From Achromobacter insuavis (GTDB lineage Bacteria; Pseudomonadota; Gammaproteobacteria; Burkholderiales; Burkholderiaceae_B): 64,000 nt of DNA. The position numbers and the translations under genes were made by a program. Below, piece by piece: positions 50,221-52,797 of the stretch. The notes under the pieces were generated by a model. That model saw only the letters and a list, made by a program, of their open reading frames with translations. It was not told where the DNA came from and made no database searches. The first letter of the stretch is position 1. Each line of letters opens with the position of its first letter. The stretch lies in NCBI RefSeq assembly GCF_902859645.1, contig NZ_CADIJR010000006.1, positions 1-64,000 on the forward strand. The letters run 5' to 3'.

Positions 50221-50970
50221 TCAGGCGGCCGGCCGGATGGCGGCCAGTTCGTCGGTGAAAATGCCGTCGATGCCCCAGTCCAGCAGCAGGCGCGCGCGCT
50301 CGGGGTCGTTGACGGTCCAGGCGGCGATGCGGTAGCCGGCGGCGTGCACGGCGTCGATCAGTTCGCGCGTGGCGTCCTTCTGGTTGATGTTCAGGGCGAC
50401 ACAGTCGTACTTGACCAGGCGGTCGAGCCAGTCGGCCGGCACCTTTTCGACCAGCAGGGCGCGCGGCAGCTCGGGCGCGGCGTCCTTGGCTGCCTGCAGG
50501 GCTTCCTCGGCGAAGGACGACAGCAGCGGGGCCACGGCGGCGCCTTGCCACAGCTCGCGGGCGGCCAGGGCGACGGCGGCGCCGGTCTCGGCCTCGCGGC
50601 CGGGGCAGGGCTTGATCTCGACGTTGCTGGCGATGCCGTTGGCGACGGTGTAGCGGGCCACGGCGGCGAAGGTGGGCAGGGGTTCGCCGGCGTAGGCGGC
50701 GGAGTGCCAGCTGCCGAAGTCCAGTTGCGCCAGTTCGCTGAAGGTCTTGGCGGCGGCGGGACCGTGGCCGTTGGAGGTGCGGTCGACGTCGTCGTCATGC
50801 ATCAGGACGAGGACGTTGTCGCGGCTGAGCTTGACGTCGTATTCGAACATGGTGAAGCCGTGTTCGGCGCCGACGCGCATGGCGGCGAGGGTGTTCTCCG
50901 GGGCCAGGCGGCCGCCGCCGCGGTGGGCGATGTGGCGGGAATAGGGCCAGGTGGGGAGGGATGCGGTCAT
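50221..50970 (-). CDS. ugpQ: Glycerophosphodiester phosphodiesterase (cytoplasmic, UgpQ-like)
   Basis: The 249-residue protein has the GDPD motifs HIAHRGGGRLAPENTLAAM (catalytic His and Asn), MFEYDVKLSRDNVLVLMHDD (metal-binding Glu-x-Asp and second His) and NVEIKPCPGRE. There is no signal peptide, so it acts in the cytoplasm on glycerophosphodiesters, giving glycerol-3-phosphate and an alcohol. It shares a transcript with rlmJ. No ugp transport genes are adjacent, so the symbol reflects similarity only. Confidence 0.9.
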   Translation of the reverse strand: MTASLPTWPYSRHIAHRGGGRLAPENTLAAMRVGAEHGFTMFEYDVKLSRDNVLVLMHDDDVDRTSNGHGPAAAKTFSELAQLDFGSWHSAAYAGEPLPTFAAVARYTVANGIASNVEIKPCPGREAETGAAVALAARELWQGAAVAPLLSSFAEEALQAAKDAAPELPRALLVEKVPADWLDRLVKYDCVALNINQKDATRELIDAVHAAGYRIAAWTVNDPERARLLLDWGIDGIFTDELAAIRPAA

Positions 50971-51095
50971 TTCTTTGATGCTTTTGGGGTTCTTTGGGAC
51001 AGGGTGGAAGGATACTCTGTTCTGGGGGTTCCTTTCCTGTCGTGCGGGGGCGGGTTCTTGCTTCGTGCCTGTGTCGCGGGTTCGGTTCTTTTGGC

Positions 51096-51252
51096 GCGGC
51101 TGCGGGGCCGTGGCGCGGGGCCGGGGCTACGAGGCTTGTCCGGCGCCTGCGCGCCGGACAGCGCATCCTCATCCTCGTCGCCTGCGGCTCCTTCGGATTC
51201 CGTCGCGCGCGCCTCTACACGCCCCGGCCCCGCGCCACGGCCCCGCAGCCGC
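51096..51252. repeat. 157-nt nested palindrome: perfect 32-bp inverted repeat with inner hairpin
   Basis: The left arm 51096-51127 (starting GCGGCTGCGGGG) and right arm 51221-51252 (ending CCCCGCAGCCGC) are exact reverse complements over 32 bases. The 93-base loop contains a second perfect hairpin: TGTCCGGCGC (51137-51146), CTGC, GCGCCGGACA (51151-51160). It lies in a gap between two minus-strand genes (50971-51504, 534 bp) with no believable gene. Strand composition is strongly G over C on the plus strand outside the arms. It looks like a structured repeat element or RNA, but no known REP or insertion-sequence family is recognised. Confidence 0.8.
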
Positions 51253-51346
51253 TCGCGGTGGGGAAAGCTCGAGGCGTCGCTGGGGCGGGGGGTGTGCTTG
51301 GACTTCGTGGGAAGGATGGCGGCGCTTGAAGGATTTGCTGGCGCCC

Positions 51347-51381
51347 GTCCGACAAGGCCGCCCTGCGCGGCCTTGTCGGAC
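51347..51381. repeat. Second perfect inverted repeat, 14-bp arms
   Basis: GTCCGACAAGGCCG (51347-51360), 7-base loop, CGGCCTTGTCGGAC (51368-51381). It lies 95 bp beyond the nested palindrome in the same gene-free block. It begins and ends with the GTCCG/CGGAC core also found in the inner hairpin of that element. No T-run follows. Confidence 0.75.
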
Positions 51382-51504
51382 ATACGTGGTGGCTGCTCGC
51401 GTGGGCGCATCCTGGGGCGGGAGGTGGGATTTGCGGGCGGGGAGCCTGTTGCTTGGGGGCAGGGGCGGCCTTCGTAGGGTTGCGCCGCCGCAGGCGCCGG
51501 GCGC

Positions 51505-52797
51505 CTATTTCATCGGGGCCTTGTCCTGGGAGACGTCCATGATCATGCGGGTGGCCAGGTAGAGGCGGGGGACGATGGAGGGGATCTGGATGTACTCGGC
51601 GTCGTTGGAGTGGGCGCCGAAGCCGCTCAGGCCCATGCCTTCGATGACGGGGCCGCGGGCCTTGAGGGCGGCGAAGGCGGCGTCGGTGCCGCCGCCGCTG
51701 GCGCGGTCGACGACTTTCAGGGGCAGGCCCAGTTCCTGGTAGATGGCGACGCCGTGGTTGGCGAGGGCGCGCGAGGCGGGGGTGGCTTCGAGGGGCGGGC
51801 GGCGCACTTCGAATTTGACGCTGACCTTGGCCTCGGGCAGCAGTTTCTTCTGGATGCGTTCCTGCAGGGTGCGCTCGAGCGCGTCGAAATCGGACACCTT
51901 GAGGGCGCGGGCGTCGGCCTGGGCGGTGGCCTGGCCGGGGATGACGTTGCGGTTGGTGCCGGCCTGAGCCACGGTCCAGTTCAGTTTCAGGCCTTCTTCG
52001 GGCTTGGACAGGTCCTTGAGCTGCAGGATCTGGTGGGACAGCTCGGTGAGGGCGTTGACGCCGCCCTCGGGACGGGCGCCGGCGTGCGAGGTCTTGCCCT
52101 GCACGGTCAGGTAGGCCGCGCCGATGCCGCTGGTGGCCAGGGTCAGGCGGCCCTCGGCGCCGCCGCCCTCGAAGGAGAAGACCGCGTCCTGGTCGGCGCC
52201 CAGGCGGGTGATGGTGGCGCGGGCGCCGGGCGAGCTGATTTCCTCGTCGCCGTTGATCAGTACGGTGAGGGTGCCGTAGTCCTTGAAGTCCAGCTTCTGC
52301 AGCAGGGCCACGGTGTGCAGGATGGTGGCCACGCCATGCTTGTCGTCGGCGATGCCCAGGCCGTAGGCGCGGTCGCCGTCGATGCGGAAGGGCTGGTCCT
52401 TGAGCATGCCGTTGCGGTAGACGGTGTCCATGTGCGCGATCAGCATGATCTTCTTCTGGCCGCTGCCCTTGAACTCGGCGTGCACCATGGGGCCGACGCG
52501 CTCGGGCGTGTCGTCCAGGCGGAAGATGTCGGCGGGCTGCAGGATCTCGACCTTGCCGCCGAGGGCCTTGAAGCGCTCGGCGATCAGGGCGGCGATGCGC
52601 TCCACGCCCTCGACGTCCTTGCTGCCCGATTCGATGTTGACCAGGTCGCGCATGGTGTCGAGCATGGCCTGCTGCTGGCCCTGGGCGGCGTCGTGGACGG
52701 CGGCCACCGGGGCGGCCAGGACGGTGGCGGCGCCACCGAGGCAGGCCAGCGCGAGCAGGGCGCGAAGGGCGAGCGGACGTGAGGACGGGTACGGCAT
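51505..52797 (-). CDS. M20-family metallopeptidase (glutamate carboxypeptidase-like), exported
   Basis: The 430-residue protein has a signal peptide (LALRALLALACLGGAATVLA). The M20 zinc sites are LIAHMDTVYRNG (His), GLGIADDKHGVATIL (bridging Asp), LINGDEEISSPGARA (catalytic Glu pair) and FGAHSNDAEYI (final His). A dimerisation insert lies near GKTSHAGARPEGG. This fits carboxypeptidase G2-like enzymes that release C-terminal glutamate from folates or peptides. Periplasmic location is inferred from the signal peptide. Confidence 0.9.
   Translation of the reverse strand: MPYPSSRPLALRALLALACLGGAATVLAAPVAAVHDAAQGQQQAMLDTMRDLVNIESGSKDVEGVERIAALIAERFKALGGKVEILQPADIFRLDDTPERVGPMVHAEFKGSGQKKIMLIAHMDTVYRNGMLKDQPFRIDGDRAYGLGIADDKHGVATILHTVALLQKLDFKDYGTLTVLINGDEEISSPGARATITRLGADQDAVFSFEGGGAEGRLTLATSGIGAAYLTVQGKTSHAGARPEGGVNALTELSHQILQLKDLSKPEEGLKLNWTVAQAGTNRNVIPGQATAQADARALKVSDFDALERTLQERIQKKLLPEAKVSVKFEVRRPPLEATPASRALANHGVAIYQELGLPLKVVDRASGGGTDAAFAALKARGPVIEGMGLSGFGAHSNDAEYIQIPSIVPRLYLATRMIMDVSQDKAPMK

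Follow-up and report, generated by a model that had tools for sequence, protein, structure and literature searches.

The intergenic region between a ugpQ-like gene and an M20-type peptidase gene of Achromobacter insuavis raises the question of what long, perfect palindromes are doing in a block of DNA that appears to hold no gene. The block lies in the window, which here means the whole stretch of 64,000 nucleotides that was analysed. It carries a long-stemmed element, termed H1, and a shorter hairpin, termed H2. Its parts and neighbours are as follows, with gene names taken from an earlier note on the same DNA.

50221..50970, minus strand: ugpQ-like gene, which starts left of the block
51018..51504, no strand: inserted block of about 487 bp (approximate extent), present in the window's clade and missing from 18 relatives with a short ugpQ/M20 junction
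51018..51095, no strand: linker left of H1, G/T-rich on the plus strand and C/A-rich on the minus strand
51092..51258, minus strand (read as the functional folded strand): H1 element, a divergent family member matched by covariance model R1 at 98 bits (E 1.8e-14)
51096..51127, no strand: arm 1 of H1, 32 nt, sequence-variable, pairs with 51221-51252 and covaries in orthologues
51128..51220, minus strand: H1 core atop the stem, counterpart of the family's conserved core of about 95 nt according to alignments A1 and A4 and the fold
51131..51135, no strand: inner stem GAGGC, paired with GCCTC at 51211-51215 in the fold and the alignment
51137..51160, no strand: inner hairpin from the fold, 10-bp stem (51137-51146 / 51151-51160), minus-strand loop GCAG, hairpin 6 of the family alignment
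51221..51252, no strand: arm 2 of H1, 32 nt, partner of arm 1, with covariation in orthologues
51253..51346, no strand: linker between H1 and H2, G-rich on the plus strand, with the family motif GTGTGCTTGG at 51292-51301
51347..51381, no strand: H2 hairpin, 15-bp stem (arms 51347-51361 / 51367-51381), loop of 5
51505..52797, minus strand: M20-type peptidase gene, which ends right of the block

The arms of H1 are 100% complementary over 32 nt, with 93 nt between them, and the arms of the inner hairpin (TGTCCGGCGC/GCGCCGGACA) form a perfect 10-mer around the loop at 51147-51150. The earlier note had described both structures, as well as a GTCCG/CGGAC sequence common to the inner hairpin and a third repeat, and these observations hold exactly. 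That third repeat, H2, is perfect as claimed, but its arms are 15 nt each (100% complementary) rather than the 14 bp first reported. Position 51018 comes directly after the conserved ugpQ leader (...GGATACTC), and the family's left-edge motif reads GGTTCTTTTGG in the window (51084-51094, within the linker left of H1). The ugpQ leader carries a resembling sequence, GGGGTTCTTTGG, at window positions 50986-50997; it occurs in orthologues too, including relatives without the element.

The segment 51060-51420 has a lower fold energy than every shuffled sequence on both strands (z -6.2 on the plus and -8.1 on the minus strand), and the minus strand of 51086-51262 reaches z -11.6 against shuffles. 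Our own codon-score gene caller finds no gene in 50971-51504, in agreement with the initial description of the block as gene-free. Several long open reading frames on both strands enter or cross the block, and are taken for spurious, as is usual in GC-rich DNA.

The block is not a single-copy curiosity. When 51060-51420 was searched against the 199 contigs of the source genome (G000), 40 matches came back. One is the query, three arise from inverted parts within it, and the remaining 36 have 67–83% identity. At an E-value cutoff of 0.001, the covariance model R1, built from 29 copies (alignment A1), matches G000 50 times; some matches are partial, and the window copy ranks 41st among the 50. 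Copies share a plan that comprises the left-edge motif GGTTCTT..G.CG, arm 1, the core of about 95 nt, arm 2, a G/T-rich spacer and, mostly, then H2. The H1 element is about 170 nt long and its stem has a median of 32 bp over 184 stems. The position of the GAGGC/GCCTC inner stem holds a different paired sequence in most other copies. H2 is in most copies a second hairpin with the head GGCCGCGCGGGCGGCC and a variable outer stem; in many, the head is GGCCGC-GCGG-GCGGCC and the outer stem is variable but complementary. Some H2 copies are flanked by an A-tract and a T-tract, like bidirectional terminators. It is practically certain that the block belongs to a dispersed structured family, H1 plus H2, in which a variable, paired stem of about 32 bp bears a conserved multi-hairpin core.

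The family is centred on a single genus. In the first genome set, 36 of 37 genomes of the genus had an R1 match, and 24 other genera had none. Across the family, R1 matched 56 genomes out of 268, spread over 5 of the 43 genera; 42 of 43 genomes of the window's own genus are among them. An order-level sample, in which strict filters and the few candidates scored per genome may have missed weak matches, gave 3 matched genomes of 399, all three within the same family. The exact core pattern occurs in at least 112 stretches of named genomes, all of them Achromobacter among the matches listed. Copy number ranges from 0 (G003) and 3 (G007, G021, G022, G064) up to at least 45 per genome. A separate expansion is seen in G121 of genus g32, which may be Bordetella: at a cutoff of E 0.1 this genome yields 44 matches, many of which form inverted pairs with about 0.7 kb between them, and six other g32 genomes in the same search have 2–11 matches each.

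Most model matches are single or in inverted pairs, and same-strand neighbours are rare. Two same-strand H1 copies lie 419 nt apart at L223 (4129-4303 and 4548-4710), and L065 has a weak second same-strand match 131 nt off. Two loci of G000 (L048 and L051, at C1:68938-69125 and C4:106942-107129) carry the same core insertion of about 18 nt, which is TGCCTAGGCGGCCCCCC-like; its presence at two different loci suggests copying between loci.

The family does not correspond to a described Rfam RNA. The window segment has nothing in Rfam 15 up to E 1. Eight family loci gave six sub-threshold matches and none at the gathering score; the only one on H1 itself is MIR1437, whose 44.8 bits fall short of its gathering score of 168. 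Plasmid and phage collections likewise hold no match, which rejects a plasmid- or phage-borne element as far as the collections searched extend. The literature titles and abstract openings screened name no Achromobacter element of this kind.

The stems were compared in a sample of 206 copies, obtained from 231 model matches (102 + 129) by dropping short matches, identical contexts and overlapping opposite-strand matches. Stems were cut to their well-paired segment, and those below 20 bp after trimming (22 of the 206) were left out. The 163 Achromobacter stems that reach 20 bp contain 5101 pairs, of which 5015 are Watson–Crick, a share that trimming raises, while favouring neither wobble type. 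For 117 distinct arms compared over their inner 28 nt, mean identity is 51%. Alignment A4, which holds the minus strand of 89 of the 107 diverse copies picked, has two-sided changes at 38 of 64 pairs. Its covariation score is 0.373, compared with 0.090 when shuffled and 0.05–0.07 when slid; 93.1% of its cells are paired (76.5% shuffled, 38–46% slid), and its double-change cells number 792 against 214.

The same holds at the window locus, where, by eye, several arm positions of the orthologues in G002, G019 and G008 differ from G000 with both sides changed, apart from a few one-sided exceptions and one additional base in G019. The earlier note had proposed a dispersed structured repeat, and had named as grounds against it a segment that occurs once only with arms neither conserved nor covarying. 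The many intergenic copies and the strong compensatory change bear the proposal out, with the qualification that it is the pairing of the arms that is kept; their sequence is not conserved and changes much faster than the core.

Between copies, the arms diverge nearly at the rate of the spacer. For orthologous pairs with coding-sequence identity of at least 0.9, identity is 0.91 in the core, 0.95 in the arms and 0.83 in the spacer; below 0.9, the values are 0.82–0.85, 0.68–0.69 and 0.62, and for random pairs of copies they are 0.83, 0.65 and 0.58. Core identity is therefore held in diverged orthologous pairs, which indicates that old copies are not decaying in their core.

How the arms stay matched is a further question. 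If compensation proceeded stepwise, mostly single changes would be expected at short distance. In a count that allowed gaps and took events as distinct by context without placing them on a tree, orthologous copies with a spacer difference of up to 5% have 7 paired changes without INTERMEDIATES (5 transversions) and 3 single ones. The numbers are 14 (9 transversions) and 9 at up to 10%, and 32 (21 transversions) and 10 at up to 15%; all are small, and stem trimming can hide single changes at the edges. Transversion pairs cannot pass through G.U. Part of the perfection of the arms may thus come from hairpin-templated correction, in which the changes of one arm are copied to the other, rather than from selection alone. 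We infer such copying rather than observe it, because the numbers are small, the events are distinct by context only and edges are trimmed.

Taken to its extreme, templated mutation would make the perfect arms a mere by-product, and the family a selfish or inert repeat without function. The excess of paired over single changes even in close orthologues and the 21 transversions among 32 paired changes are what such a repeat would produce, as are hairpins lost in single relatives. The conservation of the core, the strand bias described below and the retention of copies at the same sites across species are left unexplained, and we regard this as the least probable of the readings considered. Another reading is a 'self-copying palindrome', whose arms evolve near-freely in lock-step as mutual templates, and whose conserved core works at gene ends in the form of a folded single strand, either the element's own RNA or single-stranded DNA. 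We put this forward tentatively.

Mismatches within the stems reveal which strand folds. The trimmed stems contain 63 mismatches that would be G.U in minus-strand RNA, 10 that would be G.U in plus-strand RNA and 13 others. Counting each sequence context once leaves 44 minus against 7 plus wobbles (p about 1e-7), and per copy, the excess is minus in 45 and plus in 8 of 163. In untrimmed stems, where unpaired edges dilute the signal, the counts are 190 plus, 261 minus and 492 other. A mutational strand bias is rejected as the source, as adjacent spacers are unbiased: in 18 close orthologous pairs, spacer substitutions run at 0.042 for A/G and 0.040 for C/T. The minus-strand excess together with the unbiased spacers implies that the minus-strand fold is under selection. 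By this criterion, which is one of sequence comparison, the minus strand (the complement of the window's plus strand) is shown to be the folded, selected strand.

These counts are for the H1 stems of Achromobacter. The stems from other genera are few (21) and have no clear bias (5 minus, 3 plus), and H2 leans weakly the opposite way: its 47 distinct hairpins, not all of them true H2, have 18 plus and 8 minus wobbles. G.U pairs of either strand are rare in the stems (73 of 5101), and ordinary structural RNAs have a higher share, which weighs against an RNA. The wobble test fits RNA and single-stranded DNA alike.

The positions of the copies suggest what a folded minus strand might serve. Gene calls come from our own codon-score script, which was checked by eye on the window only. 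None of the 206 copies overlaps a called gene by more than 60 bp. In 139 of 190 copies, the called upstream gene is on the same strand, with its stop codon a median of 46 nt away. The 162 copies with both neighbours called lie between convergent genes in 92 cases, co-directional genes in 64 (36 and 28) and divergent genes in 6. Intergenic regions of 100–2500 bp from loci L124–L235 and the window are convergent in 50, co-directional in 33 and divergent in 2 cases with H1, against 8, 113 and 81 without; these loci were picked for carrying the core, such that the class proportions alone are meaningful, and 42 later model matches enter this count only. The linkers have a median GC skew of 0.34 on the plus strand, positive in 196 of 199 copies; intergenic regions without H1 have a median absolute skew of 0.05–0.08.

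Enrichment at convergent genes and a long perfect palindrome would both suit an element that acts as double-stranded DNA. It would form a cruciform or bind a protein and take up supercoiling between convergent genes, much as BIMEs do by way of gyrase. Such a role is strand-symmetric, yet the mismatches are strongly strand-biased and the linkers strand-skewed, which makes this explanation quite improbable, if slightly less so than an inert repeat.

An intrinsic terminator is rejected, as only 2 of 105 copies have, on the minus strand, a U-run of at least 5 in the 75 nt that follow H1; given this rarity, a Rho-type stop is the more natural reading. A terminator scan of the window found three weak terminator-like sites on the plus strand, left of H1, and none at H1. 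We consider the likeliest function of H1, at somewhat short of an even chance and on the strength of sequence patterns, to be that of an RNA element that marks the boundary where transcripts end. On arriving at the element, a transcript of the minus strand would pass linkers rich in C and A and poor in G, as well as the highly stable stem of H1. Rho-type release would take place in the C-rich linkers, the stem would protect or define the 3′ end, and the conserved core would be bound by a host factor. RNA polymerase would thereby be kept from running antisense into the neighbouring gene and, at the window, from passing from the M20-type gene into ugpQ. The C-rich linker is only suggestive as a sign of Rho, and the window copy, unlike the expectation for a boundary element, is not beside a convergent stop codon. 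The earlier note had suggested a structured RNA transcribed together with M20 or ugpQ, and this is compatible with the arrangement here, the selected strand being co-directional with both genes.

Neighbouring transcripts are not a sufficient source of this RNA. The minus:plus wobble counts by neighbour strands are 24:5 for (+,-), 15:2 for (-,-) and 18:1 for (+,+), with the (-,+) class holding 2 copies only. The minus bias is equally strong when both neighbours are on the plus strand, so simple read-through of a neighbour's mRNA cannot be the whole story. Consequently, pervasive antisense transcription or a promoter of the element's own must be assumed. With such a promoter, on the minus strand between H2 and H1, the copies could be a family of self-contained small noncoding RNA genes. 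Strand selection that is independent of neighbours would follow, and the conserved core, with its two fixed hairpins and conserved unpaired letters, would be expected, as would the motif GTGTGCTTGG (plus strand), which in many copies lies towards the 5′ end of the RNA. It would be unusual, though, for a single small RNA to be present dozens of times in a genome; Rfam gave no match at the gathering score, and a sigma-70 consensus scan of 50971-51504, covering the window copy only, found no promoter-like site on either strand. On balance, self-contained RNA genes seem unlikely.

Upstream flanks sort the copies into 44 orthologous sets, at least one of which mixes Achromobacter and genus g32. At the window locus, 26 of 30 loci could be resolved: 6 have H1, 2 have H1 wholly or partly deleted, and 18 are without it, with 29–188 bp between the genes in these element-free ugpQ/M20 junctions. 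Run over all 30 loci, the covariance model recovers H1 in these 6 and in no other. In G015 (L241), the junction has lost H1 between short CGCGG direct repeats, and in G024 (L251), arm 1 and most of the core are gone; both are palindrome deletions caught in the act. No further empty sites were seen at loci other than the window's, since these were selected for carrying the element. A composite of about 1.17 kb, bounded by two H1 copies of opposite orientation, occurs at three loci of the source genome at 88.6–91.5% identity, and inverted H1 ends occur only in composites. In this composite (L002:1505-2679, L010, L015), a type A H1 stands at one end and a type B H1 in inverted orientation at the other; several H2-like hairpins and a palindrome in the middle (GGTCGGCGCG...CGCGCCGACC) make up the rest. 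Two-core stretches number 11 among the matches listed, of which 10 are +/- pairs and 1 is -/-.

These arrangements bring in a second possibility, that the folded minus strand is single-stranded DNA and serves a non-autonomous mobile element as its ends or its recombination site, with the hairpin recognised by a putative recombinase. In principle, IS200/IS605-type and attC sites offer a parallel to such recognition. The occurrence of both empty and filled sites at the window locus, the composite at three loci, the preponderance of +/- pairs and a wobble bias that is intrinsic to the element in three gene contexts all suit such a site. G.T in DNA is only modestly better than A.C, which weighs against it. 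The copies resident at old orthologous sites retain their core, which would be odd for dead insertions, and no clear target duplication was seen by eye in the window-locus alignment. The Y1 transposase is absent from the source genome, and the plasmid and phage collections gave no match. On minus-strand loops, the evidence is favourable: GNA loops, present in 85 of 89 copies, are described as giving DNA mini-hairpins of extraordinary stability (PMC4686876). The second loop is GAAG or GAAC in 84 of 89 copies, not GNRA. We rank this reading second, after a transcript-boundary RNA, and regard it as doubtful. The earlier note had also raised a non-autonomous element; the empty and filled sites and the repeated composite speak for it, while neither a mobilising enzyme nor a target duplication was found.

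H1 can be set beside several known bacterial repeats. REP-type palindromes are described as 20–40 bp long with stems of 5–13 bp, and their GTAG families accompany RAYT genes (PMC3733652). The GTAG- and CGTC-tagged repeats are dispersed palindromes that lie mostly downstream of coding regions, often as dimers, and are plausibly transcribed (PMC3733652). Like REP and BIME elements, H1 copies are dispersed palindromes at the 3′ ends of genes; unlike them, H1 has a stem of about 32 bp, variable in sequence, with a conserved core of about 95 nt. The Y1 transposase family PF01797 was found in 1 of 10 genomes (G022, a low-copy genome), and in none of G000, G002, G026 and G063. Stem size and the absence of RAYT in the source genome exclude REP/RAYT membership, and mobilisation in the manner of REP/BIME, as the earlier note had envisaged, is not supported, in view of different size and architecture and of the absence of a Y1/RAYT gene from 9 of 10 genomes, including the source. 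The sole Y1-type transposase match among the 10 genomes is at L266 in G022, which has just 3 H1 copies.

Sequence-conserved terminal inverted repeats are typical of ERIC and NEMIS, whereas in H1 the arms are the variable part. Presence and absence at orthologous sites, as at the window locus, is a likeness to MITEs and other non-autonomous transposons. MITEs are described as structured intergenic repeats that are transcribed and affect neighbouring genes through mRNA folds (PMC3733652).

Two further repeats have been described from related bacteria. BRE are GC-rich, mostly intergenic elements of related genera, one copy of which is transcribed as bprJ (Hot et al. 2011, PMC3110155). They are reported to be 75–91 bp long, often in tandem with little or no spacing, to occur also in Comamonadaceae, and in some cases to lie within genes (PMC3110155). 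H1, by contrast, has no tandem arrays, 0 of 206 copies in genes, and no match outside its family among the genomes scanned. It is set apart from BRE by published description (size and tandem order), not by sequence, and no tandem array that might have identified BRE was seen around lexA in 10 genomes. Bor-1 and Bor-2 are stem-loop families of B. bronchiseptica, and Bor-2 is a structured intergenic element of 167 bp with 17 members, 6 of them complete (Cozzuto et al. 2008, PMC2267715). Its size and class, compared by description only, fit the shorter H1 copies of genus g32, and the Bor-2 entries make no mention of arm variability, strand or function (PMC2267715). Bor-2 may be an earlier sighting, from 2008, of this family in Bordetella.

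The initial interpretation of this block is therefore partly supported, and what has emerged is a real, sizeable family of structured elements with a determined functional strand, present in a genus of opportunistic bacteria. Its stems of about 30 bp, with about 98% Watson–Crick pairs after trimming and about 51% arm identity, are natural material for studying the persistence and evolution of long palindromes, and the strand bias offers a means of telling the folded strand from sequence alone. If the palindrome does copy itself, its perfection would be made by the mutation process and then used by the cell. A role as single-stranded DNA, if it holds, would point to a mobilising enzyme yet to be found, and a boundary role, if true, would make H1 a transferable transcript-end element.
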